DNA of 64,000 bases from Candidatus Tectomicrobia bacterium. Its GTDB lineage: Bacteria; UBA8248. This document shows, one piece after another, positions 2,478-61,080 of this stretch. The DNA is taken from contig JACPUR010000001.1 of assembly GCA_016192135.1 (NCBI GenBank), forward strand, positions 315,840 through 379,839. The letters run 5' to 3'. A model generated the notes under the pieces. The model was not told the origin of the DNA, ran no database searches, and saw nothing but the letters and a program-made list of their open reading frames with translations. Positions within the stretch are counted from its first letter, which is position 1, and each line of letters starts with the position of its first letter. The translations under genes and the position numbers were made by a program.

Positions 2478-3659
2478 CTATGCGGCGGGGACCGGGGCGC
2501 CGGCGAGTTCCAGCATCCGGGTGAGGACGCGCTCGGCCGAGAAGAACTCTTCCGCGATTTCCCGGGCGGCGCGGCAGTGGGCCGGATAATCCGCCCGGAT
2601 CTTCTCGAACGCCTCCAGGATGTCTTCCATCGTCCGGAAGGGGAAGAGACCCCGCCCCGCCGGAAGGACCGCCCCGAAACCGGTGTCCTGCGTGACGGCG
2701 GGCCGTCCCGCCGCCAGGAAGCAGGCGGTGCGGTCGCTGAACCAGCCCGTCCAGGGGCGGACGTACTGGTCCTTGGCCACCGTGAACTCGCCGCGGGCGG
2801 CGAAAATATAGTCGCGGTACGAGTGGATGCTGGTGGTGAGGGAGATGGCGTCCACCACGCGCCAGCCGTGCGATCGGAGCATCCGGAGCACATCCTCCTT
2901 GTTCGTGGCCAGCGCCATCTCCAGGGGCTCGCGGGTGCGCCCGGGAAGCTCCACGAACTTCAACAGTTCGAGGTGCTTGCTCCACAGGTAGGTTTCCCCC
3001 TCCCATACCGCGTCCTTGCCCGTCTGCTGCCAGCTCGTGATGGTGGTGAAGGGAGCGCCCGGCGCGGGCGCCTCCGGCCCCCGCCACCAGTCGAGGACGA
3101 CGGGCTGGCGCGTGGGCAGGAAATCGTGCCGGGTCGCCGGGATGCGGCATCCGGGCTTGCCGATATTTTCCCCGAAGGTGAACAGGTGGGTGTGGGCATC
3201 CAGCATCCCGGCCATCGATTCGCTCCCCGAGGCCACCTCCACCTGGGCCAGGAAGGGGTCCGATTCCGCGTAGATCCGCATGGGGACCCGCATGTGCTCC
3301 TCCCGGAGGATGGTCGTCCCCGTCACGTTCACCAGCATCTCCGCCTCGCCGAGCAGCCGGTCGAGGGCGGCGGGAGAGAGGCCGTGGAGGCTCCCGTCGG
3401 CCGCCGAGCGGTAGGACCACCGGCCCTTCAGGCCGCACCAGGACAGGAGGCCGTCCAGGTAGCGCGTGGTGTAGGCGCAGCTGCTGGAGATGGCGTTCTG
3501 CTCGGGGTCGAATGGCCAGGATCCCGTGTCCTCGATGTAGTAGACGTCGTAGCCCAGCCGGCGGAAGCCCTCGATGTAGTGGAGGGCCTGCCAGGCCACC
3601 CCGGCGAAGGGCGATTGGCCCATGAATCCGATGACGATGAGCTTCGGTTTTTTCGGCAT
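2478..3659 (-). CDS. GT-B-like glycosyltransferase, paralogue A
   Basis: A 393-residue protein clearly paralogous to the product of 5179-6351. Both share the N-terminal segment GVAWQ.LH..EG.RRLG..V.Y.EDTG, the central INVTG..ILREEH.RVP, AHTH.FT.GENIG.P and the C-terminal EFTVAKDQ, GWFSDR and AGRP..TQDTGF. The C-terminal pattern (name-like GRP, then an HCRAAREIAEE.F helix) resembles the donor half of GT-B enzymes often labelled glycosyltransferase family 1. The usual EX7E motif is not obvious, so catalytic activity is inferred. Within the leftward operon it follows the methyltransferase gene after 74 bp. The start was chosen at MPKKPKLIVIGFMG, where paralogue similarity begins. Confidence 0.75.
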   Translation of the reverse strand: MPKKPKLIVIGFMGQSPFAGVAWQALHYIEGFRRLGYDVYYIEDTGSWPFDPEQNAISSSCAYTTRYLDGLLSWCGLKGRWSYRSAADGSLHGLSPAALDRLLGEAEMLVNVTGTTILREEHMRVPMRIYAESDPFLAQVEVASGSESMAGMLDAHTHLFTFGENIGKPGCRIPATRHDFLPTRQPVVLDWWRGPEAPAPGAPFTTITSWQQTGKDAVWEGETYLWSKHLELLKFVELPGRTREPLEMALATNKEDVLRMLRSHGWRVVDAISLTTSIHSYRDYIFAARGEFTVAKDQYVRPWTGWFSDRTACFLAAGRPAVTQDTGFGAVLPAGRGLFPFRTMEDILEAFEKIRADYPAHCRAAREIAEEFFSAERVLTRMLELAGAPVPAA

Positions 3660-5178: not shown

Positions 5179-6351
5179 TTACAGTCCGGCTTGGCGCAGG
5201 AGCGCCCCGAGAACGGTCTCGGCCCGGAAGTGCGTCTCCGCGATTTCCCGCGCGGCGCGGCAGTGGCGGGGGTAATCGCTGTCTATCTCGTCGATCGCGG
5301 CGAGGATATCATCCATGTCCCGGAAGGAGAAGAGGCCCTCGCCGGTCGGGAGGTTCTCGTCGAAGCCCGTGTCCTGGGTGATGACGGGCCTGCCGGCCGC
5401 GAGGAAAGTGGCGCTGCGGTCGCTGAACCAGCCGCTCTTGAAGCGGATGTTCTGGTCCTTCGCCACGGTGAACTCCCCCCGCGCGCCCCGGATGTAGTCG
5501 CGGTAGGGGAGGATGTCCCGGGAGATCGCGAGCGCCTCCGTCACCTGCCAGCCGTTCTCGCGCAGCCAGGCGACGGGGTCGGAGTCGTCGTAGGCGAGCG
5601 CGAGCTCGAAGGGGCGCCCCGCGCGGCGCGGCAGGTCCGCCACCTTGAGGAACTCCGTGTGCTTGGTCCAGGTGTAGGTCTTGCCCTGCCAGACGATGTC
5701 CTTGCAGGTCTGCTTCCAATGGGTGACGGTGGTGAAGGGGCGCGGCTTGCCGTTGGCCGGGGCCTTCTCCGGCTCCCACCAGTCCAGCGCGACGGGCTGC
5801 CGCGTCGGCCGGTAGGCGAAGGGCCCCGTCGGGAGGGGGCAGATGGGCCTGCCGATGTTCTCCCCGTAGGTGAAGTGGTGGGTGTGGGCGCTCAGCAGGC
5901 CGATGGTGAAGCGGTTGCCCTGGGCCACCTCGATCTGGGGCAGGACCGGATCCGTCTCGATGAAGACGCGCACCGGGACGCGCAGGTGCTCTTCGCGCAG
6001 GATGGTCGCGCCCGTCACGTTCAGGATGGCGTCGGCCCGGCGGAAGATATCCCCGGCGGAGGAGGCGAGGGGGCCGTGGAGGCTTCCGTCCACCCCGGAG
6101 CGGTAGAGCCAGCGGCCGCCCATCCCGCACCAGGACATGATTCGGTCGAGGTAGCGCAGCGAGAAGCCGCAGTCTTCGGTGACGGTTTGCTGGTCGGCGT
6201 CGTAGGGCCAGGCGCCGGTGTCCTCGACGTAGTGGACCTCACACCCCAGGCGCCGGAGGCCTTCCAGGAAGTGGAGGAACTGCCACGCCACCCCGGCGAA
6301 CGGCATCCGGGCGGCAATGCCCATCAGAACGACAGAAGGCCGGCCTTTCAT
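5179..6351 (-). CDS. GT-B-like glycosyltransferase, paralogue B
   Basis: A 390-residue paralogue of the protein at 2478-3659, colinear over its whole length with the same landmark motifs (EDTGAWP, NVTGATILREEH, AHTHHFTYGENIG, EFTVAKDQN, GWFSDRSATFLAAGRP, QDTGF). The two copies are well diverged yet both intact, which suggests distinct acceptors or donors rather than a recent duplication. It begins 5 bp after the ABC exporter gene, so it is probably co-transcribed and perhaps translationally linked. Activity as a glycosyltransferase is inferred from the fold-like C-terminus and context. No signal peptide or membrane segment is visible, so a cytoplasmic or membrane-face location is likely. Confidence 0.75.
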   Translation of the reverse strand: MKGRPSVVLMGIAARMPFAGVAWQFLHFLEGLRRLGCEVHYVEDTGAWPYDADQQTVTEDCGFSLRYLDRIMSWCGMGGRWLYRSGVDGSLHGPLASSAGDIFRRADAILNVTGATILREEHLRVPVRVFIETDPVLPQIEVAQGNRFTIGLLSAHTHHFTYGENIGRPICPLPTGPFAYRPTRQPVALDWWEPEKAPANGKPRPFTTVTHWKQTCKDIVWQGKTYTWTKHTEFLKVADLPRRAGRPFELALAYDDSDPVAWLRENGWQVTEALAISRDILPYRDYIRGARGEFTVAKDQNIRFKSGWFSDRSATFLAAGRPVITQDTGFDENLPTGEGLFSFRDMDDILAAIDEIDSDYPRHCRAAREIAETHFRAETVLGALLRQAGL

Positions 6352-48947: not shown

Positions 48948-49197
48948 ACGAAAGGGCATGGCCGCGAGACTGAAGGAGGGCAGGCTTTTTCCCGGTCGTC
49001 TGGATTTGGATTGAAAGAAAGTGACGGAGGGGAGGGGTCTATCGAAAGATCGGACGAGGCGGGAACAGACATGGGCCGGCACTGGCGAGACATTTTGCCT
49101 CGCGCATATGGCCGGGTCCTGCCCTTGGGCTAGACCCTCACGGGTGCTTCCCAGCCACTGGTGTTATGCGGGCTGCCCTTGAGCACGGGGGCCTTTC

Positions 49198-49308
49198 TCA
49201 CTTCGCTGCCACCCTATCGAGTTGCCGGTACTGGATGGCCTCGGCCAGGTGGGCGGGGGCGATGCTCGCCTCTCCGGCGAGGTCGGCGATGGTCCGCGCG
49301 AGCTTCAC
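49198..49308 (-). pseudogene. comM: comM 3'-end fragment (36 codons)
   Basis: The minus strand encodes VKLARTIADLAGEASI, then APAHLAEAIQYRQLDR, then VAAK-stop, which is the extreme C-terminus of ComM/YifB Mg-chelatase-like proteins. It is almost identical to the end of the longer fragment at 60042. Everything upstream of this segment is missing. It adjoins an XRE fragment in the opposite orientation, as at the second locus. Confidence 0.8.
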
Positions 49309-49309
49309 G

Positions 49310-49449
49310 CCCTGGGATGGGAAACCCAGGAATCTGGGGAGCGCCTCAAGGCCTACCGCTGGGCAAGGGGCCTGACCCAGGAGGAGATGGCCCGGAAGGC
49401 CGGGGGGACCCTGGCGAGATGGGAGAGGGGATGGGGAGCCCGCCCCTAG
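49310..49449 (+). pseudogene. XRE-type HTH gene fragment
   Basis: Encodes ESGERLKAYRWARGLTQEEM and then ARKAGGTLARWERG, the second HTH half of a two-HTH XRE family whose fuller copy is at 60545. A codon or two are missing between KAGG and TLARW, and the N-terminal half is absent. It ends at TAG (49447-49449). Confidence 0.7.
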
Positions 49450-49656: not shown

Positions 49657-49705
49657 CTGTCATTCCTAAGCCAGGGCAAATCAATTGGCTAATGCGGGGG
49701 GCGGA

Positions 49706-51565
49706 ATGGTTGTCCGGTCATTGAAAGCGAAACTTTTCGTGGCCGTGGTTCTCCTGGGGGTATTGCCATTTTCTTTGAGCGTGGTGGTGGAGGCCTATCT
49801 GGCCCATCGGAGGCTCATTGCCGAGACGAGGGAGAGGCTGGCGACGGCTCCTCTGCCGGTTCTCCGGCGGATGGAGATTCTCCTCTTCGCCCGCTGGAAT
49901 GATGTGCACCTCCTTTCCCATATGCCGCTCTTTCAGGATTCGGAAGGTGTGGGATATCAAGCCGCGATTCTGCGGCGCGCGGCGGATCTCCATCAGCCCG
50001 ATGCCTGGCTGGCGCTGGCCAACGAGAGGGGGCGCATTCTCGCTTCCAGCGATGAAAAATTTATGGACACTGATGCAAGCGAATCCCGCTGGTTTCGAGA
50101 GGCGGGTAAGATATCCTTCCGCGATTGGAGGGAAGCCGCCCGTTCCATGTACATCAGCGAGCCTTATGTTCCCCCCTCCGGCGACGGGCGGCTGGTGATG
50201 TGTTTCAATTCCCCCCTATACGACACAGGGGGGCGCTTCCGAGGGGTGGTCCACAGTGAGATTAAGCTGAGCGCTCTGATCCCGTTCCTCTCCAGTCTGC
50301 GCATGGGCAAGACTGGGCGGGCGCTGCTCGTCCGGGGAGACGGAAAGATATTGCTCGACGACCAGAACCTCCTCCCTCCCATAGCGAGGACCGTCGCTGG
50401 CCATCCAGCCTTCGTCCGGGTTCTCGCGGGAGAGATGCCGGTGGTGCGCGACCGCGATCTCGATGGCGACGCCGCTCTCGTGAGCGCCTTTCCCATCAGA
50501 GGATTCGGGCAGTATCCTGGAGTCAAGTGGTTCGTTCTTGTTTCCCAGAAGGAAAGTGAGATATTCGCCCCAGTGAGATCCATGTTTCTCATTCACTCCA
50601 CGGTGGGTCTTCTGGGGGTAGGTTTCATCTTCCTAGGAGGATTTTTCCTCTTCGACCGAAAGATCTCGAAGCCGGTGGGCCAGCTCATGGAGCGCGTCCA
50701 CTCCCTGGAGACGCAGGGACCCATGCCCGAGGAAGACACAATGAACTATTCCGAGGATGAGATCGGGCGGCTGGAGCGCGCCTTCAGCGACATGGTCCAC
50801 AGCCTATCGATAAAGGAAAAGGCCCGGAAGGAACTCCAGGAGCGGCTCGTCCAAAAAGAAAGGCTGGCCGCCATCGGAGAGATGGTGGCGGGGGTGGCCC
50901 ATCAAATCAAAAATCCCCTAGCCACCATCAAAGTCGTGTCACAGGCGCTTAGTGAGGAATTCTCCTCTCATGCTTCTACCCAAGTCGCTCTTTCTCGGAT
51001 TGACAAAGAGGTCAATCGGCTGAATCGCCTCCTGCGAGCATTCTTTGACTTTGCGGCGCCCGGGGAGCTCCAAAAGAGCCCGTGCGATCTTCGGGCACTC
51101 GTCCAGGAGGCGCTTGCCCAGGTGGAAGAGAAGCGGGTGGAAGCAGGCGTGGAGGTCAAGGAGAAATACGCTGGTCCATTTCCCCTTCTTTTGTTGGATC
51201 CGCAACAGATGCTCCAGGTGTTCATCAATCTTTTCCACAATGCGGTTCAAGCCATGCCGACAGGCGGTGTCTTGTCCATCGACGCCGGGGTGGACGGAGA
51301 AGGGGAGGGAGCGGCGCGCGGTGTAAGGGTCAGGGTATCCGACAGCGGGATCGGGATTTCGTCTGAAAATCTGGGCAAAATCTTCCAGCCATTCTTCACC
51401 ACACGGTCCTCGGGCATCGGGTTGGGGCTTTCCCTCGTTTTCAAGGTTGTCCAGAAGCACGGGGGCGAGGTGCGCGCCGAAAGTCAGCCGGGGCGGGGAA
51501 CCACATTCGAGCTTTTCCTTCCCTGCGGGGAGCCGCTTGCCGGTGCAGGAGGCCAGACCCGATGA
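49706..51565 (+). CDS. Sensor histidine kinase with periplasmic Cache-like domain
   Basis: A 619-residue kinase. Helix one is at about 8-30. A 260-residue periplasmic region has the Cache pattern (LALANERGRILASSDEKFMD, SRWFREAGKISFRDWREAA, MYISEPYVP, then GGRFRGVVHSEIKL). Helix two is near 293-315, then a HAMP domain, the phosphoacceptor GVAHQIKNPLATI, and an ATPase domain with LFHNAVQAMP, SDSGIGIS and GIGLGLSL. The start at 49706 follows GGGGGG, and an earlier in-frame TTG is possible. Its stop overlaps the activator start (ATGA). It should sense an external small molecule and control the selenoprotein-cytochrome operon. Confidence 0.85.
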   Translation: MVVRSLKAKLFVAVVLLGVLPFSLSVVVEAYLAHRRLIAETRERLATAPLPVLRRMEILLFARWNDVHLLSHMPLFQDSEGVGYQAAILRRAADLHQPDAWLALANERGRILASSDEKFMDTDASESRWFREAGKISFRDWREAARSMYISEPYVPPSGDGRLVMCFNSPLYDTGGRFRGVVHSEIKLSALIPFLSSLRMGKTGRALLVRGDGKILLDDQNLLPPIARTVAGHPAFVRVLAGEMPVVRDRDLDGDAALVSAFPIRGFGQYPGVKWFVLVSQKESEIFAPVRSMFLIHSTVGLLGVGFIFLGGFFLFDRKISKPVGQLMERVHSLETQGPMPEEDTMNYSEDEIGRLERAFSDMVHSLSIKEKARKELQERLVQKERLAAIGEMVAGVAHQIKNPLATIKVVSQALSEEFSSHASTQVALSRIDKEVNRLNRLLRAFFDFAAPGELQKSPCDLRALVQEALAQVEEKRVEAGVEVKEKYAGPFPLLLLDPQQMLQVFINLFHNAVQAMPTGGVLSIDAGVDGEGEGAARGVRVRVSDSGIGISSENLGKIFQPFFTTRSSGIGLGLSLVFKVVQKHGGEVRAESQPGRGTTFELFLPCGEPLAGAGGQTR

Positions 51566-53022
51566 AGAATTCATCTTACCCTAGCCGGCGGGAAACGATT
51601 GGCGCCACAGAGAGGGGAGAGAGCCCAGGGGCCGTCCGGTTCCCGCGCAGGGTGCTCGTTGTCGAGGACGATCAAAATTTGCGGGAGAGCCTCCGGGAAG
51701 TTCTGGAGAAGATGCAATGCAAGGTGGAGGCGGTGGAGTCGGGGGAGGAGGCTCTCGGGCACCTTCGAAGCCAACCAGTGGAGTTGATTCTACTGGACAA
51801 TCGTCTTCCAGGCAGGAGCGGTATTCAGGTTCTGCGGGAAATCCGGGAGGCGGATGAGGACACCTTGGTCATCATGATGACGGCGTTTCCGGAGATCCGC
51901 ATGGCGGTCCAGGCCATGAAGGAAGGCGCCTATGATTATATTCATAAGCCCTTTGAGCTGGAGGAACTTCGCATCCTGGTTGAAAGGGCTTTGGAAACCA
52001 CGAACTTGAGGAACGAGGTGATCCGTCTGCGTCACATGAGCGGACTCCGGGAGACGGAAACCACGCTCTGGGGCGATTGCCCGGCCATGCGCGAGCTTCG
52101 AGACCTCATCCAGGTGGTGAGCCAGACGCCCGATACCACTGTGCTCGTCCAGGGAGAGAGCGGAACGGGAAAGGAACTCGTGGCCAATGCCATCCACACG
52201 CTTAGTGAGCGGTGCAAGGGGCCGCTGGTGAAGTTGAACTGTGGCGGAGTCCCCGAAACCCTCTTGGAATCCGAGCTCTTTGGCCATGAGAAGGGGGCCT
52301 TCACCGGCGCCGGGGCGGCCAAAAGAGGGCTCATGGAGCTCGCCGACGGGGGGACTCTTTTCCTGGATGAGCTGGATAGCATGAGCCTCGGCATCCAGCC
52401 GAAGCTGTTACGCGTCCTGGAAGAGCGTGCTTTCAGGCGCGTGGGGGGGATAAGGGAAATTCCCGTGGACGTCCGAATCGTCGCGGCGACCAACCGGGAT
52501 CTGAAGGCGATGATCGCGAAAGGCGAGTTCCGGGAAGATCTTTTCTACAGGCTCAACGTGATGACCGTCTTTCTTCCTCCCTTGCGCGAGCGGGCAGGGG
52601 ACATCCTCACGCTCGCCCATCTCTTCTTGGCCCGGCATAGTTCAAAATTGAGAAAAGAAATCACCGAGATCAGTCCCGCTGCCCAGCAGATATTGCTTCT
52701 TTACCCGTGGCCCGGGAACGTTCGAGAGCTCGCGAACGTGATGGAGCGGGCGGTGATTCTGACGCGAGGCTCGAGCATCCTGCCGATGCACTTGCCCATT
52801 GAAATGCAGCGTATCGATGCCCTTCCGGAGGCGGCCGGCCTGCCGGCCGATCTTTCCGAGACTGATTTATCGCTGGAGGCTTGGGAAGAAGCGCATATCC
52901 GCAGGGTCCTCGATCTCTCAGGGCGTAATAAGTCTGAGGCGGCGCGGCGGCTGGGCATCTCTCGTTCGACTCTCCTTGAAAAGCTGAAAAAAGCGCAGCT
53001 CCCAAGTTCTTTCCCTGAATGA
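51562..53022 (+). CDS. NtrC-family sigma-54-dependent response regulator
   Basis: A 486-residue activator: receiver (VVEDDQNLRESLREVL, phospho-Asp in LILLDNRLPG, K in YIHKPFE), AAA+ domain with Walker A GESGTGKE, GAFTGA loop, Walker B TLFLDELDSM, and a C-terminal Fis-type HTH (NKSEAARRLGISRSTLLEKL). Coupled by ATGA to the kinase. It is a paralogue of the regulator at 29007 but not its closest possible copy (different linker and DNA-binding helix), so it likely recognises other sites. The expected target is the sigma-54 promoter at 53272. Confidence 0.9.
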   Translation: MKNSSYPSRRETIGATERGESPGAVRFPRRVLVVEDDQNLRESLREVLEKMQCKVEAVESGEEALGHLRSQPVELILLDNRLPGRSGIQVLREIREADEDTLVIMMTAFPEIRMAVQAMKEGAYDYIHKPFELEELRILVERALETTNLRNEVIRLRHMSGLRETETTLWGDCPAMRELRDLIQVVSQTPDTTVLVQGESGTGKELVANAIHTLSERCKGPLVKLNCGGVPETLLESELFGHEKGAFTGAGAAKRGLMELADGGTLFLDELDSMSLGIQPKLLRVLEERAFRRVGGIREIPVDVRIVAATNRDLKAMIAKGEFREDLFYRLNVMTVFLPPLRERAGDILTLAHLFLARHSSKLRKEITEISPAAQQILLLYPWPGNVRELANVMERAVILTRGSSILPMHLPIEMQRIDALPEAAGLPADLSETDLSLEAWEEAHIRRVLDLSGRNKSEAARRLGISRSTLLEKLKKAQLPSSFPE

Positions 53023-53271: not shown

Positions 53272-53287
53272 CGGCACCTCCCTTGCT
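53272..53287 (+). promoter_or_regulatory. Sigma-54 promoter of the selenoprotein-cytochrome operon
   Basis: CGGCACCTCCCTTGCT has GG (53273-53274) and GC (53285-53286) ten bases apart, GGCAC and TTGCT both consensus. It lies 76 bp upstream of the first gene and directly after the gene of a sigma-54 activator. Confidence 0.75.
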
Positions 53288-53362: not shown

Positions 53363-53941
53363 ATGATGAGGTATGGAAAGGTGTGGTTTTTGGCTTTGCT
53401 GCTCGGGGGGAGCCTGCTTCTGGCGCCTCCCGGAAGTCAGGCGGGCGGCCTCGACGCGGTCAAGGTAGGGGCGCCCGCTCCCGATTTCACGCTGCGCGAT
53501 TGGAGCAGCGCCCAAAAGGAGCACACCCTGAGCGAGCTCAAGGGGGAAAAAGTGGTGGTGCTCCACTTCGGGAGCTCGAGCGACTGGGGCTATGTGAAGC
53601 AGATCGGCCCCATGAACGAGCTTTACAAGAAGTTCCGCGGGAAAGGGGTCGCCTTCTACACGATTTACGGCCCTGAAACGGACGGAAAATGGCAGCCCAA
53701 GACGGACTTCGACCGGCTCGAACGGGCGAGAGGCCTCCGTTTCGCCTACGGCCTGCAAACGCATGGGCGCATGCTCGTCCCTGTCCTGGCCGACGAACTC
53801 GACAACCGGACTTTCAAGGCCTACGGGGAGACGCCCAACAGCGTGATCATCATCGACAAGGAGGGGAAGATCGTCTCCAAGATGGCCAATGCGGATGTGA
53901 AGGCGGTCGAGAAAGCCCTCAAAAATCTGGTCAGTGAGTAG
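53363..53941 (+). CDS. Exported thioredoxin-fold protein, Asp in place of Sec
   Basis: A 192-residue protein with a signal peptide (VWFLALLLGGSLLLAPPGSQA) and an AhpC/TSA-like thioredoxin fold (GAPAPDFTLRDW, then VVVLHFGSSSDWGYVKQ). It is a paralogue of the next gene product: YGETPNSVIIIDKEGKI matches YGQNPNGITIIDPDGKI. The redox position occupied by selenocysteine 74 there is Asp74 here, so this copy cannot do thiol chemistry at that site. It may be a binding partner of its active paralogue. It is the first gene behind the sigma-54 promoter and is followed after 12 bp. Confidence 0.8.
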   Translation: MMRYGKVWFLALLLGGSLLLAPPGSQAGGLDAVKVGAPAPDFTLRDWSSAQKEHTLSELKGEKVVVLHFGSSSDWGYVKQIGPMNELYKKFRGKGVAFYTIYGPETDGKWQPKTDFDRLERARGLRFAYGLQTHGRMLVPVLADELDNRTFKAYGETPNSVIIIDKEGKIVSKMANADVKAVEKALKNLVSE

Positions 53942-53953
53942 GGAGGAGAAGGC

Positions 53954-54559
53954 ATGTCTAAGTTAACGCGGTTCGGTCTGGGCCTCGCCGCTCTCGGCCT
54001 TCTGGGCTGGGCGGTTCCGGGGCACGCGTACACCCGGGAGGAGCTGGCGAAGTACGAAGAAAAGGCCATGATGGCGCCCGAGTGGACCCTTCAAGGCATG
54101 GACGGCAAGACATATAGCCTCAAGGACTACCGGGGCAAAGAGTACGTCGCCATCCAGACCGGGAGCTCCACCTGAACGATGTACAACGCGCAGTGGTCTG
54201 CTGCGCAGAAGCTCATCAAGAAGTGGGACGGGCGCTTCAGCAAGCTCCCTCTCAAGATCTTCACCCTGTACAACCAGGAAGCCCACCTCGACTGGCAGGC
54301 GAAGACCCTCGATGAGCGCACCGAGCGCGCCAAATGGCACGGCAAGCTCTGCGCCCTGACCACGAGCCAGGAGCAGATCGAGTCGGTCGTCGTGGACAAC
54401 CCCGACAATAAGACCAACATCGCCTACGGCCAGAATCCCAACGGCATCACGATCATCGATCCGGACGGGAAGATCATTTATTACCGCGACTGGTTCCGCT
54501 ACGGCGAAGTGGACAAGTTCTTCGAGGATCTCTTCAAGAAGAAGACGGCGAGTCAGTAA
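53954..54559 (+). CDS. Selenoprotein 1: exported thioredoxin-fold protein with GSSTU motif
   Basis: A 201-residue protein read through one in-frame TGA (54173-54175, residue 74). Before it comes a signal peptide (GLGLAALGLLGWAVPGHA) and the first half of a thioredoxin fold ending VAIQTGSST. After it comes TMYNAQWSAAQKLIKKW and the rest of the fold, ending TIIDPDGKIIYY...LFKKKTASQ. GSSTU resembles the GSxTU redox motif of deiodinase-like and other selenoproteins. A SECIS-like hairpin follows the TGA. Read as a stop, TGA would leave two useless halves in the same frame in an otherwise intact operon. GGAGG precedes the ATG. Confidence 0.85.
54173..54206 (+). promoter_or_regulatory. UGA recoding site and bacterial SECIS 1
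   Basis: The TGA is at 54173-54175. Stem GCGCAG (54188-54193) pairs with CTGCGC (54201-54206), extended by a U-G pair, leaving apical loop GGUCU. The loop G is the 23rd base counted from the U of UGA. E. coli fdhF has the same GGUCU loop at nearly the same distance. Confidence 0.8.
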
Positions 54560-54656
54560 TTGATGTCAGAACCCTTCACCCGGGTTGTTCACGCGCCCGG
54601 GTCGAAAGGACATAAACCCGCTCTTGGCTTTCACCGAGGGCATGAGGTGCCGGGCG

Positions 54657-55697
54657 ATGAGACAAATCTTTCGGATGTTGAGCGGTGTTTGGATATTGGC
54701 GCTGGCGCTCGGTCCCGCCGGCGCGGCGGCGGCGGAGAAAATCCCTCTCGCCTACAAGGGCCAATCGGCCGCTCTCAGCTACCAGATCGACGTGAAGTCC
54801 CACCACGTGGTTTTCGACCATGGCGGGGGCGGCTGGCGCGGAAAAACCCCCGAGCGCTCCCATCACGAGATCCTGAACTTCGATCTCAAGTCGCAGAAGA
54901 ACCCGGGCGGAGTGTTGAGCCAGATCAGCACCTTCACCGGCGTCAACGGCAAGGGTTCAAAGCTTTGGGGGAAAGAAGGCGATGTGCCCGTCCTCTGGCT
55001 CAAGCGCGAACAGATCGTCGGCAGCAGCCAGCTCATGGACATGGACGCCCTGGGGAAGGTGGTGAAGGCCACCGGCGCCCCCCATTTCATGTCGCCGGGC
55101 TATAAGCAGAAGCCCGACCCGGATGGGCCCCCGATGGACCTGTACCGGGTCCTGACGATGATTTTCCCGCAGTTTCCGGCTAAGGCCGTCGGCGTGGGCG
55201 ACTCCTGGGTGGTGCGGGACAGGTTCATCGTCGGTCCCGCCGAGGACAAGGCCGACGCGAATATCCAGCAGCGGAGCCACAAGCTTGAGGCCAAGATCCG
55301 GCGTGACTTCCGCCTCACCTTCAAGGGATTCGAGGAGCAGAAGGGTTACCGGGTGGCGCGGATCGCGTTCGAGGGCAAATTCGGCACCGACATCAAGGGA
55401 ATCGAGCCGAACAACGGCCACTACATCACCGCCACGGGCACGGCGGCGGGGGAGTTCCTGTTCGCCCCGGAGCAGGGCCTGCTGGTCGGGGCCGACTTCA
55501 AAAGCAAGTTCGACTTCAGCTACGCCACCGACGGTGTGCTCGTCGGGTACTACCTCACGCCCAAGGAGCGGATCAGCCTCCTTCTCGAGGACCGGACGAC
55601 CCCGCCCATCCCTTGGCGCGCGGAGCAGCAGGTCCGGTTGGAATTGAAAAAGCAGACGGCGGGTATCGATCCGTCCGTGAAGAGAGCGTCCCGCTAG
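54657..55697 (+). CDS. Exported beta-rich protein of unknown function
   Basis: A 346-residue protein with a signal peptide (MLSGVWILALALGPAGAAAA) and many alternating strands (AALSYQIDVKSHHVVFDH, IRRDFRLTFKGFEEQKGYRV, FLFAPEQGLLVGADFKSKFDF). The pattern looks like a secreted or outer-membrane-associated beta domain; I do not recognise the family. There are no cysteines in the mature part, so it is not a redox protein itself. Starts at 54642 and 54585 are also possible; 54657 gives the cleanest signal peptide. Its place between the Sec protein and a CPLC protein suggests a substrate-binding or scaffold role. Confidence 0.65.
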   Translation: MRQIFRMLSGVWILALALGPAGAAAAEKIPLAYKGQSAALSYQIDVKSHHVVFDHGGGGWRGKTPERSHHEILNFDLKSQKNPGGVLSQISTFTGVNGKGSKLWGKEGDVPVLWLKREQIVGSSQLMDMDALGKVVKATGAPHFMSPGYKQKPDPDGPPMDLYRVLTMIFPQFPAKAVGVGDSWVVRDRFIVGPAEDKADANIQQRSHKLEAKIRRDFRLTFKGFEEQKGYRVARIAFEGKFGTDIKGIEPNNGHYITATGTAAGEFLFAPEQGLLVGADFKSKFDFSYATDGVLVGYYLTPKERISLLLEDRTTPPIPWRAEQQVRLELKKQTAGIDPSVKRASR

Positions 55698-55724
55698 GGC
55701 CTTGGCGTGAAGGGGAGAAGAAGG

Positions 55725-56246
55725 ATGTGGAGCCGGCTTGTTAGGAAAGCGGCCGCCGTCGCGGGATCGGCCCTCCTGATGGTTCTTGCGGCCACGGGAA
55801 CCCAGGCGGCAGGTGTGGGCGAGCCGGCTCCCTCCTTCACCCTCCTCGACGCAGTTTCGAAGCGGGAAATCCGGCTCCACGAGTTCCGGGGACGTACCGT
55901 GGTGATGTGGGTGTGGGACACGGTTTGCCCCCTCTGCCTGGACGAAGGCAAAGCCATTGACCAGTTTATCGCCGGGCGCCCGGACCTCGCGGGACTCCTC
56001 GTCATCGAGCGGGGCGACGAGATGGATCTCGAAATCGAGGGGCAGATCTACCAGCCCCGGATGCATCTCCTGGTGGACAAGAAGGCGGCGGTCGAGAAGA
56101 GCTACGGCCTCACCCGGCTGCCCGTGCTTATCATCGTGGATCGGACCGGGCGAGTTCGATACCGGGGATCGTACGACGGGAATTGCCGGCTGGCGGAGCA
56201 CATTGCCCGCATCGAGGCCGCAACGGTTTTACGTGGCTGCCTGTGA
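55725..56246 (+). CDS. Exported thioredoxin-fold protein with CPLC motif
   Basis: A 173-residue protein: signal peptide (AVAGSALLMVLAATGTQAAG), GEPAPSFTLLDAVSKREIRL, then the redox motif WVWDTVCPLCLDEG and the cis-proline region TRLPVLIIVDRTGRVRY. The WVWD..CP.C context matches the CPVU protein at 57326, so these two are paralogues with cysteine and selenocysteine in the same place. It probably exchanges disulfides with the other carriers of the operon. The start at 55725 follows GGGGAGAAGAAGG. Confidence 0.8.
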   Translation: MWSRLVRKAAAVAGSALLMVLAATGTQAAGVGEPAPSFTLLDAVSKREIRLHEFRGRTVVMWVWDTVCPLCLDEGKAIDQFIAGRPDLAGLLVIERGDEMDLEIEGQIYQPRMHLLVDKKAAVEKSYGLTRLPVLIIVDRTGRVRYRGSYDGNCRLAEHIARIEAATVLRGCL

Positions 56247-56262
56247 CTTTCAGGAGAAGGAA

Positions 56263-56817
56263 ATGATCGTCTTGAATCGCCTCAAGGGGGCAAGTCTGGC
56301 GGGCCTCTTTCTGCTCGGGCTGACAGGTCTCGCGCTGGCGGCCTCCCCGCCGAAGTCCAAGGAGCCGCAGAAAAAGGCCGCCAAGGAGGCCGTCGCGGTA
56401 CCGGGCGCGGCATCGGCGGACCCGAGGTGGAGCGAGAAGCACCGGAAATATGAAGAGAAAAACTGGGCATTCGATATCGTGAACGGCAACATCCGCTTCT
56501 CCCACGGCAATCACAAGAACCGCGACCGGTGGTTCCGGGCCTACTTCCGGCAGGGGTACTCGTGCGGAATCTGCCACAGCACGGCCGTGCCCCAGGATGA
56601 CGGAAAAGGGTATGTGAAGATGAGCAAGGGGGACCCCCTCGCGACGGTTGAGGATATCCGGGACGCGAAGGACGAGGCGTACGCGTATGGGGTATCCATG
56701 CTCACTTGCTTGGGCAACTGCCACAACGGCTTCACGGCGCCCAACAACTGCGACTGGTGCCACCTGCCCCAGAGCAAGCCGATCAAGGAAGGGCAGAAGG
56801 AGATCAAAAAATGGTAA
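56263..56817 (+). CDS. Triheme cytochrome c with a CX3CH site
   Basis: A 184-residue exported protein: signal peptide (LAGLFLLGLTGLALAA), a lysine-rich linker, then three heme-type motifs: CGICH, CLGNCH and CDWCH. The middle one has three residues between the cysteines. Other histidines (FSHGNHKNR) could be distal ligands as in cytochrome c3/c7 proteins. It overlaps the next thioredoxin-like gene by 7 bp, so the two are coupled and may exchange electrons between thiol and heme carriers. Confidence 0.8.
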   Translation: MIVLNRLKGASLAGLFLLGLTGLALAASPPKSKEPQKKAAKEAVAVPGAASADPRWSEKHRKYEEKNWAFDIVNGNIRFSHGNHKNRDRWFRAYFRQGYSCGICHSTAVPQDDGKGYVKMSKGDPLATVEDIRDAKDEAYAYGVSMLTCLGNCHNGFTAPNNCDWCHLPQSKPIKEGQKEIKKW

Positions 56818-57326
56818 GGGGGAAAACGCGCTGGTTTGCCTGGACGGGGGCCCTCCTCCTGTCGGCGTCCCTGGGCTTTATGGCATTCCAGTATCTTTTC
56901 GCCCCGGCCGGAGAGAGTGCCCCCGACCTTCGCCTCCAGAATCTCGCTGGTGAAGAGATTCGCCTCTCTCAGTTGCGGGGGAAAACGGTGGTGGTCAATT
57001 TCTGGGCCACCTGGTGCCAGCCTTGTGTTTACGAGATTCCAGAACTGGCCCGCTTCTCCGAGTCCCAGCGCGACCGGAACGTGGTCGTCCTCGGGGTGGC
57101 CATGGACAAGAACGTGGACAAGGTGCGGGACTTTGTCCAGCGGTTCAAAGTCTCCTATCCGATCGTGATCGGAGATATCGCCACCGCCCGGCTTTGGCAG
57201 GTACGGGGGCTTCCGATGACCTTCATCATATCTCCGGCGGGGAAGGTCGATCGGGTAATACCGGGAGGAATCACCCAGGCCGCCTTGGAGGCGGCCATCC
57301 GGCCGCGTGCGGGAGGAGCCTCCTGA
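56811..57326 (+). CDS. Membrane-tethered TlpA/ResA-like thioredoxin
   Basis: A 171-residue protein with an uncleaved-looking N-terminal helix (FAWTGALLLSASLGFMAF), GESAPDLRLQNLAGEEIRL, the active site WATWCQPCVYEIP and the cis-proline loop RGLPMTFIISPAGKV. This is the ResA/TlpA/DsbE family, reductants of apocytochrome c or other periplasmic disulfides, normally recharged by CcdA. CcdA is encoded at the end of the same operon. It overlaps the triheme cytochrome gene and shares one base (TGATG) with the next gene. Confidence 0.9.
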   Translation: MVRGKTRWFAWTGALLLSASLGFMAFQYLFAPAGESAPDLRLQNLAGEEIRLSQLRGKTVVVNFWATWCQPCVYEIPELARFSESQRDRNVVVLGVAMDKNVDKVRDFVQRFKVSYPIVIGDIATARLWQVRGLPMTFIISPAGKVDRVIPGGITQAALEAAIRPRAGGAS

Positions 57327-57958
57327 TGCATGCCCGGCGGGATTTCCGGAAATTCTTCTCGGCCCTGTGCGCGGCCCTCATGGCAGTGGCCGTGTCGCCC
57401 GCGCCCTCGCTCGCGGTGGAGCTTTGCCAGCAGGCCCCCAATTTCAAGGCGTACGAGGTGGTGCAGGAAGAGGACTTCGACTTCCACGCCTACCGGAAGG
57501 GAAGCGTGACGCTCTTCTGGATCTGGGATTGGGCCAAGGAGTGCCCCGTCTGAGGGCCGGCGGGGAAGGCCCTCGGTGAGAGGGTCCAGCGTTTCTCGAA
57601 GCGGGGGGTCAAAGGCGTCCTCCTCGTCGAACGGGCGGATGAGAAGATGGTGGCCCTCGCAGCATACGGCATCTTCGGGGACAGCGTGCCCTACGCGACG
57701 GCGGTGGATCGCGGAGGAAAGACGGCGCGCGCGTACGGGCTCGATCCCGATCGCCTTCCCGCTATCTTCATCCTCGATCGGGCGGGCCGCATCCGCTACA
57801 TCGGTTTCGAGGAAGACGTGAAGGCTCTCCTCAAGCAAACTGATTCCGAAATTGACCGCGTTGCAGATGCGCTCCTGAGAGAGAAGGGGCGGGATGCGGC
57901 TGACCTCCAGGGGATAAAGGGATTCAGTCCCCGCTGCGAAACAAAAGGGAGATCGTAA
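57326..57958 (+). CDS. Selenoprotein 2: exported thioredoxin-fold protein with CPVU motif
   Basis: A 210-residue protein read through an in-frame TGA (57551-57553, residue 76). It has a signal peptide (FFSALCAALMAVAVSPAPSLA), then LFWIWDWAKECPV, Sec76, GPAGKALGERVQRF, and the C-terminal thioredoxin half with LPAIFILDRAGRIRYIG. CPVU replaces the CPLC of the paralogue at 55725, so Sec stands at the resolving position of a CxxC motif. A SECIS-like hairpin follows. The frame is open from 57326 to 57958 apart from this codon. It ends one base before the tetraheme cytochrome start. Confidence 0.85.
57551..57586 (+). promoter_or_regulatory. UGA recoding site and bacterial SECIS 2
   Basis: The TGA is at 57551-57553. 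Stem GGCCCTC (57568-57574) pairs with GAGGGTC (57580-57586), including one G-U pair, around apical loop GGUGA. The loop G is the 25th base from the U of UGA. Confidence 0.75.
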
Positions 57959-57959
57959 G

Positions 57960-59291
57960 ATGAAGGGCTTCCGCGGCCGGTGGGTGGCGGCAGGGGTGCT
58001 CGCCGCAGTCGCCTTCTTGCCTTTCCAAAACCCCGTCGTAGCGCACGCGGAAACCGCCTCGAAGGGCCCCGCCCTCGATGGGGAGCGGCTGATACGCGAT
58101 CTCAACTGCGCGGCCTGCCACCAATTGGGAAAGGGCCTCAAAAGCTCCTTTCCCGAGAACCACCAGGTCGGGCCGGATCTGAGCCACGAGGGAGAGAAGG
58201 TGCGCCCGGAGTGGCTCTTTGACTTCCTGAAGGATCCCCGCCCTCTCCGGCCTGGAATCGAGGCCCGGATGCCCAAATTCCGGCTCTCCGACGAGGCCGC
58301 GCTCGGCATCACGCTTTATCTCTCTTCGCTTCGCCCGAAGGGCGCCGCCGCCGAGGCGGATTCGCGCCGGAAGCCTTCACCGCCGTCCCCTGGCCATCTG
58401 GCGGAGGGGAAAAAATATTTTGACGACCTGGAGTGCGCCAAGTGCCATTTCCCGCCCGGCCAGCGTCCGGCGGCTGGCCTTTCCGTGCAGGAACTGGGGC
58501 CCGATCTGGGCCTGGCGCGCGCCCGTTTGAATCCCGACTGGGTTCTCCGCTGGCTCAAGACTCCTCAGGCGATCCAGCCCGGGACCAAGATGCCCAATTT
58601 CTTCTATGACGACGCCGGCCAGCCCCTCGACGAGAACGCCGAGAAGATGATGATCGGTGTGCGGGATTATGTGATGCAGGCTGGAGAGGCGAAGCCCTCC
58701 CCGAACTTCCGAAAGGCCCTGGAGCGCCTCCCTTGGGTGACCGTGGCCCGCGGGCGGGAGCTCATGGTGGAGCTCAACTGCGTGGGCTGCCACCCGGTGG
58801 AGGGCCTCCCGAAGCCGAAGAAGGTGGGACCCGCCCTCGCCTTCGAGGGGGACCGGGTGAAGCCGGACTGGCTCGCCCAGTTCCTGCGCGAGCCGCGGGT
58901 CATTCGTCCGATGGAGCCGGCCGCCATGCCCGACTTCCGGCTGTCGGGGGGCGAAGCGGCAGCCGTCGCCGAGTTCATCGCAGCCCGCTGGAAAGAGGAG
59001 GCCCGCGACGCTTCGGCGGTGGGAGAGCAGAGCCTGACGGCCGCCCTGGCCGTCAAGGGAAAGAGCATGTGGGAGCAAGAGCTGGGCTGCTCCTCTTGCC
59101 ACCGGTTCGGAGAGAAGGGCAGTATCGGAGGGCCCATCCTCACCGGCCTAAGCGAGCGCCTCAATCCCGCATGGCTGTTCCGTTGGGTGAAAGATCCCAA
59201 GCACTTCCTGCCCAACACTCCGATGCCCAGGGTTCCTCTCACGGACGATGAGGCGAAGGCGATTGTGGCCTATCTCTTCAGCCGGAGATAA
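57960..59291 (+). CDS. Secreted tetraheme cytochrome c
   Basis: A 443-residue exported protein: signal peptide (WVAAGVLAAVAFLPF), then four modules with CAACH, CAKCH, CVGCH and CSSCH. Each is followed by the W..FL.(D/E)P segment, a methionine in (R/K)MP.F or AMPDF and an E-A-rich helix, exactly as in the pentaheme protein at 25803, of which it lacks the N-terminal single-heme domain. PGTKMPNFFYDDAGQP here matches PGTKMPDFFYSGGQP there. It likely accepts electrons from, or gives them to, the selenoprotein/thioredoxin relay. Confidence 0.85.
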   Translation: MKGFRGRWVAAGVLAAVAFLPFQNPVVAHAETASKGPALDGERLIRDLNCAACHQLGKGLKSSFPENHQVGPDLSHEGEKVRPEWLFDFLKDPRPLRPGIEARMPKFRLSDEAALGITLYLSSLRPKGAAAEADSRRKPSPPSPGHLAEGKKYFDDLECAKCHFPPGQRPAAGLSVQELGPDLGLARARLNPDWVLRWLKTPQAIQPGTKMPNFFYDDAGQPLDENAEKMMIGVRDYVMQAGEAKPSPNFRKALERLPWVTVARGRELMVELNCVGCHPVEGLPKPKKVGPALAFEGDRVKPDWLAQFLREPRVIRPMEPAAMPDFRLSGGEAAAVAEFIAARWKEEARDASAVGEQSLTAALAVKGKSMWEQELGCSSCHRFGEKGSIGGPILTGLSERLNPAWLFRWVKDPKHFLPNTPMPRVPLTDDEAKAIVAYLFSRR

Positions 59292-59303
59292 AGGAGCGCC
59301 GAC

Positions 59304-60032
59304 GTGCCGGTTGCCACAGTAGGCCTGACGACGGCGTTTGCGGCCGGGCTGCTCTCCTTCCTTTCTCCTTGCGTTCTGCCGCTGGTTCCTGGCTACGTGG
59401 CCTTTATCTCAGGGGTTTCCCTTGAGGAAATGGAAAAGGCGGTAGACCGGACGCGGAATATGAGGAAGGCGGTAGCCGCTTCCTTGCTCTTCGGGGCGGG
59501 TTTCACGGTCGTTTTCGTCCTCATGGGCGCCACCGCCACTTTGGCGGGGCAATTCCTCTTCAGCCGGTTCCTCTTTCTCCAGCGCGCGGCGGGGGTTCTT
59601 ATCATCCTCTTCGGACTTCATGTCCTGGGGATTCTCCCGATTCGCTTTCTGTACCGGACGATGGCGGTCACTGTCGAGCGGCGCTCCGTAAGTCTGGGGG
59701 GAGCCTTTTTCGTTGGGGTGGCCTTCGCATTCGGATGGACGCCCTGCATCGGCCCCGTCCTCGCGGGCATTCTGGCATTCGCGGGCACCCAGCAGACCGT
59801 TCAGGAAGGAATGCTTCTGCTTTTGACTTACTCTTTCGGGCTCGGCATCCCTTTCCTCCTCACCGCCGTAGCCATGAACATGTTCCGGACGGTCCTCCAG
59901 CAGGTGCGCAAGTATATGCGCCATGTGGAGCTGGGCAGTGGCGCCCTGCTGATCCTCATCGGTGTTCTCATCGCCACTGACAACCTGTCTTGGCTCGCTT
60001 ACACGCTGGGCATACCGGGAATCGCTCAATAA
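59304..60032 (+). CDS. ccdA: CcdA-type transmembrane thiol reductase
   Basis: A 242-residue, six-helix protein. The two redox cysteines are in LLSFLSPCVLPLVPGY and FGWTPCIGPVLAGI, conserved throughout CcdA/DsbD-beta. It carries electrons from cytoplasmic thioredoxin across the inner membrane to periplasmic thioredoxin-like proteins, here most likely those of 56811, 55725, 53954 and 57326. The start is GTG at 59304 with AAAGGAG upstream. It is the last gene of the operon; the comM remnant follows after 9 bp. Confidence 0.9.
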   Translation: MPVATVGLTTAFAAGLLSFLSPCVLPLVPGYVAFISGVSLEEMEKAVDRTRNMRKAVAASLLFGAGFTVVFVLMGATATLAGQFLFSRFLFLQRAAGVLIILFGLHVLGILPIRFLYRTMAVTVERRSVSLGGAFFVGVAFAFGWTPCIGPVLAGILAFAGTQQTVQEGMLLLLTYSFGLGIPFLLTAVAMNMFRTVLQQVRKYMRHVELGSGALLILIGVLIATDNLSWLAYTLGIPGIAQ

Positions 60033-60041
60033 ATCTCTTTT

Positions 60042-60527
60042 TCACCTTCCCGCCGGCCTGTCGAGCTGCCGGTACTGGATGGCCTCGGCCAGATGGGCGG
60101 GGGCGATGCTCGCTTCTCCCGCCAAGTCGGCAATCGTTCTCGCCAATTTCAGCACCCGGTGGTAGGCCCTGGCCGAGAGGCCGAGCCGCTGGACGGCCAT
60201 CTGGAGGAGCCTTTTTCCCTCGGCGTCCGTCCGGCAGAAGCGGTTGACGAGGGCCGCCCCCATGTGGGCGTTGGAGTGAATCCCGGTTATTCCCTCGAAG
60301 CGGGCGCGCTGCACGGCGCGGGCGGCCTCGACCCGGGCGCGGATGGCTTCTGAGGATTCCCCCTCGGGCTCCTCGGCCAACTCCTTCCAGGGCAGCCTCG
60401 GCACCTCGATGTGGATGTCGATGCGGTCGAGCAAGGGCCCCGAGAGGCGCGAGCGGTAGCGCTCGACCAGCTTGGGGGTGCAGGAACAGGCCTTGGCGGT
60501 GTCTCCCAGGTGGCCGCACATGCAGGA
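60042..60527 (-). pseudogene. comM: comM 3' fragment, N-terminal two thirds missing
   Basis: Encodes about 160 residues of the C-terminal part of ComM/YifB (CGHLGDTAKACSCTPKLVERY, then RSRLSGPLLDRIDIHIEVP and SARAYHRVLKLARTIADLAG, ending YRQLDRPAGR). Similarity stops at CMCGHLGD, where intact proteins have a further 300 residues including the ATPase P-loop. Upstream in frame there is soon a stop. The ATG near the break is accidental. A gene for this AAA+ DNA-uptake helicase presumably exists elsewhere. Confidence 0.85.
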
Positions 60528-60544
60528 TTCCGTGGCTCTTTGGG

Positions 60545-61000
60545 CGGTTCCGGTTCAAAGCCACGAAACCGGTTTCGTGGCGGTACCCGAAAACCCTCGA
60601 TTCCATTGGCGATCACCTCCGGCGGGTCCGCCTCGACCGGGGGCTGCTCCAAAAACAGGTAGCAGAGCAGCTTGGCGTGAACGCCCAGACGGTCACCAAT
60701 TGGGAGCTGGGCCGGACGCCGCCAGATTTGCCCTTCATTCCGAAAATTATCCAGTTCCTGGGATACACCCCCTGGGACGGAAAGGCCCGAGCGCCCGGCG
60801 AGCGCCTGAAGGCCCTCCGGTGGAGTCTAGGAATGACTCAGGAGACGATGGCTCGGCGGCTGGGGATGGACCCCACCACCCTGGCGAGGTGGGAGAGGGG
60901 AGAGAAAGGACCGACGGTCAAGAAATTCAGATGGTGCGTTGAGACCATTTTTCTGCTGACCGGGGTACCCCTTACTGACGGAGGCGCTCCCGGTGCCTGA
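60545..61000 (+). pseudogene. XRE-family two-HTH regulator, start codon lost
   Basis: Encodes IGDHLRRVRLDRGLLQKQVA, EQLGVNAQTVTNWELGRTPP and FIPKIIQFLGYTPW, then GERLKALRWSLGMTQETMA and TTLARWERGEKG, a widespread two-HTH XRE family. The N-terminal stretch before it (KATKPVSWRYPKTLDS) is also family-like, but no ATG, GTG or TTG with a ribosome site precedes it; instead the frame runs into comM antisense DNA. The upstream part also holds a 22-bp palindrome. Probably not expressed, though a non-standard start cannot be ruled out. Confidence 0.65.
60560..60581. repeat. Perfect 22-bp palindrome inside the XRE remnant
   Basis: GCCACGAAACC reads into its reverse complement GGTTTCGTGGC. It is of the same kind as the REP-like palindromes at 14110 and 15579. 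Confidence 0.7.
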
Positions 61001-61080
61001 CCCAGGAGGAGATGCCCGGGGGCTGGGGGTGGACCCGGGGACACTGGTGAGGTGGGAGAGGGGGAAGGGGAGGTCGGGGG
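60980..61080 (+). pseudogene. Second decayed XRE HTH remnant
   Basis: Frame-broken pieces CLTQEEMP and LGVDPGTLVRWERGKG follow the stop of the previous XRE copy. The DNA from CTGACCCAGGAGGAGATG on closely matches the fragment at 49370-49435. Confidence 0.6.

Follow-up and report, generated by a model that had tools for sequence, protein, structure and literature searches.

A putative sigma-54-controlled envelope operon combining a deiodinase-like selenoprotein and its Sec-less paralogue, Sec and Cys redoxins, CcdA and two multihaem cytochromes

Within the window, the 64-kb stretch of DNA that was analysed, nine consecutive genes on the same strand (g1 to g9, 53363-60032) form a closely packed block. 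The intergenic distances range from -7 to +16 nt at all junctions except g2-g3, where the distance is 97 nt and the start is uncertain. Predictions place all nine products outside the cytoplasm or in the membrane. An earlier sequence-only reading had described these nine frames, all of which are present, and its list of components (thioredoxin-fold proteins, two paralogues of which one has Asp for the Sec of the other, a pair of c-type cytochromes and CcdA) is supported by protein families and motifs. Coordinates of the block, its control region and its flanks are collected in Table 1.

Table 1. Predicted features of the locus; the entries g1 to g9 are reading-frame calls.
Feature	Position	Strand	Description
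Left flank	49193-49431		degenerate comM 3'-end (49193-49307) and HTH_3 fragment
Sensor histidine kinase	49685-51565	+	Pfam dCache_1 (periplasmic), HAMP, HisKA, HATPase_c
NtrC-type sigma-54 activator	51562-53022	+	receiver, AAA+, Fis HTH
Sigma-54-type -24/-12 site GGCACCTCCCTTGCT	53273-53287	+	pattern match in the 340-bp gap
g1	53363-53941	+	exported deiodinase-like protein
g2	53954-54559	+	exported deiodinase-like selenoprotein
TGA read as Sec in g2	54173-54175	+	family Sec column; SECIS-like hairpin 3'
SECIS-like hairpin, g2	54188-54206	+	7-bp stem, loop GGUCU, ~20 nt past UGA
g3	54657-55697	+	exported beta-rich protein
g4	55707-56246	+	exported TlpA/AhpC-TSA-like redoxin, CPLC
g5	56263-56817	+	exported c7-like multiheme cytochrome
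g6	56811-57326	+	ResA/TlpA-like thiol-disulfide oxidoreductase, CQPC
g7	57326-57958	+	exported TlpA-like redoxin selenoprotein, CPVU
TGA read as Sec in g7	57551-57553	+	g4 homology runs on in frame past TGA; SECIS-like hairpin 3'
SECIS-like hairpin, g7	57568-57586	+	7-bp stem, loop GGUGA, ~22 nt past UGA
g8	57960-59291	+	exported tetraheme class I cytochrome c
g9	59304-60032	+	CcdA-type membrane electron transporter
Right flank	60037-61072		comM C-terminal fragment (60042-60521, - strand) and HTH_3 gene

The kinase and NtrC-type genes overlap by 4 nt and lie directly upstream of the block, as had been proposed. The kinase carries a dCache_1 domain (Pfam, 61.2 bits against a cut-off of 45), and the regulator matches Sigma54_activat (228 bits), Response_reg (108.5 bits) and HTH_8 (37.8 bits). 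The gap in front of g1 contains the site GGCACCTCCCTTGCT, a match to a pattern for which chance predicts 1.3 occurrences in 64 kb when both strands are counted and about 0.0035 on the plus strand of the gap. Only two sites in the window fit TGGCAC-N5-TTGCW with at most one mismatch, and this is one of them. It deviates from the pattern by a single base, at the first T; the promoter claimed earlier is present, but calling it a consensus was slightly generous. RpoN is encoded in the genome (203.8 bits). With a -24/-12 site, an NtrC-type activator and RpoN all present, the nine genes are apparently under sigma-54 control. An AAAGGC-N8-GCCTTT dyad near 53231 was considered as an activator site and set aside, as chance yields such dyads. 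A search for defence-system families found none.

Two of the genes, g2 and g7, contain an in-frame TGA. The genome encodes a tRNA-Sec with anticodon UCA (74.8 bits, cut-off 47) and SelB (389 bits, cut-off 242); an ORF adjoining selB (L128:2673-4112) is SelA-like, an assignment made by reading and not by HMM. In all 18 aligned homologues of g2, which span seven bacterial families, TGA directly follows an invariant Thr, and E(A/P)H occurs downstream of it in the same 18. The g7 TGA occupies the column of the second CPLC Cys in its neighbour and paralogue g4. Synonymous randomisation matched the g2 hairpin in 63 of 5000 cases and the g7 hairpin in 339 of 5000, the latter being weak on its own. 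Codon-position GC remains coding-like downstream of both TGAs. Both TGAs very probably encode selenocysteine, in keeping with the two Sec codons called earlier: decoding genes and homology agree, and the positions hold Sec across the examined g2 homologues and Cys in g4, with no unrelated residues.

The pair encoded by g1 and g2 matches PF00837 close to its cut-off of 27, with 28.2 bits for g1 and, for g2, 28.3 bits by whole-protein hmmscan and 21.8 bits by a genome scan of the same locus. When the family profile was compared with solved structures, deiodinase 3 (E 5e-18) and deiodinase 2 (4e-16) outranked ResA. The motifs GSSTU (GSxTU in the family) and EAH are present in g2. Its Y106, E109 and H111 align with Tyr157, Glu160 and His162 of Dio2, and equivalents of Ser127, Thr129 and Sec are also retained; all six Dio2 residues have been named as active site and proton relay (PMC11592359). 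By profile and active-site residues, g2 probably belongs to the deiodinase-like group, a known bacterial selenoprotein family (the Sargasso Sea family, PMC1088965) whose membership the earlier reading had missed. A tree including deiodinase-like and TlpA rows grouped g1 with g2 (support 85/77), its separation of the pair from TlpA proteins not being firm (AU p = 0.38). The g2 structure model (pLDDT 55) matches only the thioredoxin-fold class and therefore carries no weight for the deiodinase assignment.

Judged by the animal enzymes, g2 would be called deiodinase-like, not a deiodinase. Sec is followed by TMY, without Pro; its loop contains no counterpart of the second relay His (Dio2 His182) in the alignment; and the substrate loop (loop-D) lacks about 11 residues that homologues have. 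These features suggest that its chemistry may differ from that of deiodinases. One further Cys, C133, is present. In g1, the alignment shows GSSSD in place of GSxTU, with Asp for Sec, and ETDG in place of EAH, with the His gone. The whole protein contains neither Sec nor Cys and so cannot itself be a thiol or selenol carrier, a point that the earlier reading had missed. Overall, g1 looks like a pseudoenzyme partner and not an active deiodinase-like enzyme.

Three redoxins and a membrane transporter accompany this pair. The paralogues g4 and g7 (29% identity, E 3e-18) contain WVWD..CPLC and WIWDWAKECPVU, respectively; g4 matches PF08534 (45.4 bits) and PF00578 (43.5 bits), and g7 matches PF00578 (47.5 bits) and none of the NCBIfam Sec families. 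A published table of 119 prokaryotic selenoprotein families (PMC13188914) gives such domains with TxxU, UxxC, UxxU, UxxS and UGC, and limits CxxU to Prx-SUH and Trx7/PDZ; a CPxU TlpA-like redoxin of the g7 type is not among them. The third redoxin, g6, has an N-terminal membrane anchor or signal, the motif WATWCQPC and a PF00578 score of 84.7 bits. The transporter g9 (PF02683, DsbD_TM, 64.4 bits) has six hydrophobic segments and exactly two Cys, C23 and C148 (PCVLP, TPCIG), which are the two CcdA cysteines.

Of the remaining products, g5 contains two CxxCH motifs (CGICH, CDWCH) and the non-canonical CX3CH motif CLGNCH, a correction to its earlier description as triheme. It scores 23.5 bits for Cytochrome_C7 (cut-off 24.8) and 19.3 bits for nanowire_3heme (cut-off 40). 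The g8 product has four heme motifs (CAACH, CAKCH, CVGCH and CSSCH), with an MP motif after every one of them, and matches PF00034 (106 bits) and PF13442 (92 bits). A match of g8 to SoxX was rejected, its score adding up contributions from four generic c domains. The g3 protein contains no Cys and has no match in Pfam or NCBIfam and no relatives outside its own genome among 117 genomes; its single-sequence structure prediction is poor (pLDDT 34).

We tentatively propose, with a probability of roughly 0.45, that the operon encodes an envelope electron relay running from CcdA through TlpA-like redoxins to the deiodinase-like selenoenzyme g2, with the cytochromes tying it to the respiratory chain. 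The extracytoplasmic-sensing kinase and the sigma-54 activator would induce the module. CcdA (g9) would take reducing equivalents from cytoplasmic thioredoxin and pass them to the anchored g6, which would in turn supply g4 (CPLC) and g7 (CPVU), both keeping the Sec of g2 reduced. An established envelope route likewise leads from a membrane transporter through TlpA to a peroxiredoxin (ScsB-TlpA-PprX, PMC5403849). In our proposal, g2 would act outside the cytoplasm and reduce a small oxidised substrate by two electrons, candidates being a peroxide, a halogenated organic compound, or a sulfur or selenium species, with C133 as a possible resolving partner of Sec. Animal deiodinases function as dimers, and g1, its fold kept, may for this reason be a structural or substrate-binding partner of g2. 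The c7-like g5 and the four-heme class I g8 would form the link between this pool and the respiratory chain, either supplying it with further electrons or draining it. A purely reductive relay would not need cytochromes. We infer the relay direction, the substrate, the physical interactions and the g1-g2 pairing from the gene content.

In an alternative, oxidative and Sox-like scheme, g2 and g7 (with g4) would oxidise or carry a reduced substrate such as sulfide, a thiol, selenide or arsenite, and electrons would pass through g5 and g8 to a terminal oxidase; CcdA and g6 would merely repair over-oxidised carriers, the task that SoxV/SoxW or SoxS perform for SoxYZ. The four class I (His/Met) c domains of g8 are of the oxidase-feeding type (Cytochrom_C, CBB3, FixO-like), and there is a precedent for c cytochromes together with the CcdA orthologue SoxV and the periplasmic thioredoxin SoxW (PMC10451225). 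Against this, none of the nine proteins scores above the cut-off for the SoxY, SoxZ, SoxB or SoxA families. Moreover, the deiodinase-like and redoxin Sec enzymes of known reaction are, to our knowledge, reductases, which speaks against oxidation. We consider this scheme rather unlikely.

In other systems, ResA and CcdA serve in the maturation of cytochrome c, and the operon itself holds two cytochromes. Here, g6, g4, g7 and g9 might reduce apocytochrome or haem-site thiols for the maturation of g5 and g8, the Sec proteins acting as robust versions of CcmG/ResA and g1/g2 shielding maturation from peroxide. The ResA score of g6 (108 bits) points in this direction but lies under the NCBIfam cut-off of 170. 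ResB was not found in the genome, which indicates that System II is absent and rules it out as the reason for g6 and g9. A second CcdA is encoded beside tatC; together with the lack of ResB, this means that g9 is not the sole CcdA and that g9 and g6 are not System II parts. Three redoxins and a deiodinase-like pair also exceed what maturation requires, and we regard a role in cytochrome assembly or repair as distinctly unlikely.

The block lies between degenerate comM/HTH repeats and for this reason looks acquired. The sequence at 49193-49307 is a direct repeat of 60037-60151 (82% identity), and the right flank matches Mg_chelatase_C (117.9 bits) and HTH_3 (58.8 bits). The block is absent from all 17 sampled relatives of its phylum, which is little known. 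Scans of viral contigs gave no relatives, and tblastn found no relatives of g2, g7, g5 or g3 on plasmids. Genome contigs yielded no further copy of the operon in scans with g2+g1 and g7+g4, which, at two narrow patterns of 7-9 residues per scan, is weak evidence of absence. TlpA-like matches in three genomes (G029, G042 and G302) were rejected as operon copies, their gene context being different; in G302, two Cys TlpA genes adjoin a multihaem cytochrome frame. With no second locus found in these limited searches for a check of conserved synteny, joint action of the nine genes is without comparative support. Still, it is very unlikely that they are unlinked cargo, that is, acquired and partly decaying envelope redox genes of no single function with at least one TGA an ordinary stop: the degenerate repeats on both sides, the absence from every phylum relative searched and a g7 hairpin weakly above chance would fit, but the genes are tight and often overlapping, have their own promoter and regulator, show coding-type base composition on both sides of each TGA, and reside in a genome with Sec machinery, with the g2 TGA at the Sec codon of its family. 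We give an even slimmer chance to a corrinoid-free, Se-dependent envelope dehalogenase that serves respiration or detoxification, or a reductase of chalcogen species, formed by g2 with g1 as pseudoenzyme partner and fed with electrons by both the CcdA-driven redoxins and the c7 and class I cytochromes.

What bacterial deiodinase-like selenoproteins do has been asked since 2005. The deiodinase-like homologues that we read in context offered no clue through their neighbours, among which there was no cytochrome/CcdA operon. The present operon would be a rare tie of such a protein to a CcdA pump, to Sec/Cys redoxins and cytochromes, and to a sensor and promoter; these named partners open the electron source, the inducer and the substrate to direct tests. 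The reason why animal deiodinases form dimers may become clearer from the Sec/pseudoenzyme pair, and with g7 the selenoproteome would gain a redoxin of the CPxU type.

Bacterial deiodinase-like selenoproteins (PF00837; PMC1088965; UxxC in PMC13188914) share with g2 the thioredoxin fold, G(S/A)xTU, E(A/P)H and a bacterial-type SECIS. They have UPPY or UPYC where g2 has UTMY, and g2 differs further in its short loop, its tandem Sec-less and Cys-less g1, and its cytochrome/CcdA operon. Animal iodothyronine deiodinases have Sec and five relay residues in common with g2, and their two-electron reductive chemistry and dimers provide a model for g1-g2. In contrast to them, g2 is a predicted exported bacterial protein with loop-D largely missing, and there are no grounds to assume a thyronine substrate. 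Sox systems with SoxV, SoxW or SoxS also bring together a CcdA orthologue, a periplasmic thioredoxin and c cytochromes, whereas the nine proteins include Sec proteins and no SoxYZ, SoxAX or SoxB. Sec proteins also accompany multihaem cytochromes, or else a DsbD-like domain, in the ExtKL and TsoA/B/C/X/Y clusters (PMC13188914); these precedents involve other Sec families, and no deiodinase-like pair or CPxU TlpA-like redoxin is listed for any of them. The closest functional likeness is ScsB-TlpA-PprX of Caulobacter (PMC5403849), in which a membrane transporter feeds TlpA and a peroxiredoxin-fold enzyme. Here CcdA would take the place of ScsB and a deiodinase-like enzyme that of the peroxiredoxin, with Sec in a redoxin and in the terminal enzyme, two cytochromes and sigma-54 control added. 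By this analogy, the operon would resemble that system in its working without being a member of it. The literature searched contained no matching description, in line with the earlier claim that no such system had been described: the component families are already known, and their combination is new.

Nine consecutive frames on the + strand (g1–g9) are spaced from -7 to +16 nt apart, the sole exception being a 97-nt gap between g2 and g3, where the start of g3 is uncertain. The block is preceded by a histidine kinase, an NtrC-type activator and a sigma-54-type site. A shuffle control gave ~1.3 expected matches to this pattern per whole window, and the chance expectation for the 340-bp gap before g1 on this strand is ~0.0035. 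The source genome (3.9 Mb, 41 contigs, 97% complete) encodes RpoN. The sequence-only reading had proposed both the gene block and its regulatory front end, and both were borne out.

Features of the operon region and related loci (plain coordinates refer to the window; L-numbers denote other DNA stretches)
Feature	Position	Remark
1.1-kb repeat	2523-3612; 5209-6304	likely a pair of paralogous genes; copies 70% identical, spaced by 2.7 kb
Left flank: degenerate comM (Mg chelatase-like) 3' end, HTH_3 fragment	49193-49431	
dCache histidine kinase	49685-51565	upstream of g1–g9
NtrC-type activator	51562-53022	upstream of g1–g9
Sigma-54-type site GGCACCTCCCTTGCT	53273-53287	single one in the gap before g1
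g1–g9	53363-60032	
Middle haem motif of g5, CX3CH (CLGNCH)	56707-56724	non-canonical attachment site
Right flank: comM 3' end, HTH_3	60037-61072	comM truncated, 159 codons
Two further Sec deiodinase-like genes, source genome	L057:255-725; L056:6654-7106	solitary TUPPF/TUPPY type
ResA-like gene, another genome	L067:1712-2263	TGA in active site (WATWUPTC); Sec TlpA of the UxxC kind
Two Cys TlpA-like genes beside a multihaem cytochrome frame, unrelated genome	L107:4262-6299	simpler TlpA-plus-cytochrome pairing

Selenocysteine (Sec) had been proposed at the internal TGAs of g2 and g7, and both assignments are supported. The source genome encodes tRNA-Sec, a SelB scoring well over the cut-off and, adjoining selB, a SelA-like gene assigned by eye. 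A profile search with g1 and g2 recovered homologues in the same phylum and several other families, and nearly all close g2 homologues contain exactly one internal TGA. TGA occupies the g2-TGA column in all 18 aligned homologues, directly after an invariant Thr; six were read codon by codon and three more were seen in ORF lists. The g7 TGA aligns to the second Cys of CPLC in the neighbouring paralogue g4, and the similarity continues in frame for ~85 residues beyond it. Codon-position GC is coding-like before and after both TGAs. A 7-bp hairpin, whose 5-nt loop starts with G, lies 20–22 nt past each TGA. Equally good hairpins arise in 1.3% (g2) and 6.8% (g7) of synonymous-codon randomisations and at 4.7% and 2.3% of codon positions, respectively, so the hairpins are supportive, not decisive. 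Our estimate is a probability of about 0.95 for Sec at the g2 TGA; at the g7 TGA, Sec is very likely.

The paralogues g4 and g7 are diverged TlpA-like redoxins with an unusual W(V/I)WD ahead of CPLC and CPVU, respectively; a CPxU redoxin with the g7 domain is absent from the 119 families tabulated in PMC13188914. g6 is ResA/TlpA-like. The proposed tetraheme cytochrome and CcdA were confirmed. Each of the four class I c domains of g8 carries an MP motif; g9, the CcdA, contains precisely two Cys. The triheme assignment of the c7-like g5 stands for three haem motifs, only two of them canonical CxxCH. g3 has no family match and no usable structure model.

By analogy with the ScsB–TlpA–PprX envelope pathway (PMC5403849), electrons would probably pass from cytoplasmic thioredoxin through CcdA (g9), g6 and g4/g7 to g2, which would reduce a small substrate outside the cytoplasm. 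The sequence directly shows which genes are present, the capacity to decode Sec, the residues of the active site, the regulator and the promoter motif. We infer each transfer step, a g1–g2 complex and the substrate; export of the individual proteins is predicted from hydrophobic N-termini alone. The chief competing reading has electrons flowing in the oxidative direction, as in Sox. g5 and g8 could tie the electron pool to the respiratory chain in either direction. A role of g6 and g9 in general cytochrome maturation is argued against by a second CcdA gene beside tatC elsewhere in the source genome and by the failure to find ResB there.

Our phylum sample comprised one family of 18 genomes, and none of the 17 relatives has counterparts of g3, g5 or g7; g3 also lacks a counterpart in 99 further genomes. 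No orthologous g1/g2 pair was recovered from 368 other genomes, where matches were solitary UPP/UPY-type or TlpA proteins. Two insensitive pattern scans of 84,980 species did not find the operon, which is a single instance so far. The kinase-to-CcdA block is bracketed by two direct comM 3'-end copies, each accompanied by helix-turn-helix fragments; the copies share 82% identity over 115 nt and are 10.8 kb apart. The arrangement looks like the insertion or duplication of a 10.7-kb unit at this place. Together with the absence from relatives, these repeats suggest that the block was acquired as a unit.

The component families are already known, except g7, an unlisted Sec subtype, and the orphan g3. 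The literature searched describes neither the nine-gene combination nor a tandem of a Sec enzyme and a Sec-less, Cys-less pseudoenzyme; within it, the claim that no such system had been described stands.

Deiodinase-like selenoproteins are an established bacterial family (PMC1088965) whose function has yet to be assigned. Most genomes of the phylum carry one to three Sec deiodinase-like genes of the solitary type. In whole-protein scans, the iodothyronine deiodinase Pfam scored 28.2 for g1 and 28.3 for g2 against a cut-off of 27, and just 21.8 for the g2 stretch in the genome scan. Against solved structures, the family profile including g1 and g2 ranked deiodinase 3 (5e-18) and deiodinase 2 (4e-16) first, with ResA behind. 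The tree joins g1 to g2 with moderate support (85/77) and does not set them significantly apart from TlpA proteins, so family membership leans on profile and residues. The proposed pairing of a Sec-to-Asp protein with its Sec paralogue is upheld by the alignment (shared fold, 33% identity). g1 has Asp at both the Sec and His positions and no Cys, and is thus incapable of thiol/selenol chemistry and best read as a putative pseudoenzyme. g2 has one Cys (C133) besides Sec. It keeps equivalents of Ser127, Thr129, the catalytic Sec, Tyr157, Glu160 and His162, which belong to the Dio2 active site and proton relay (PMC11592359). The second His of Dio2 is missing from g2, as is most of the substrate loop, and g2 reads UTMY in place of the deiodinase-like UPP motif.
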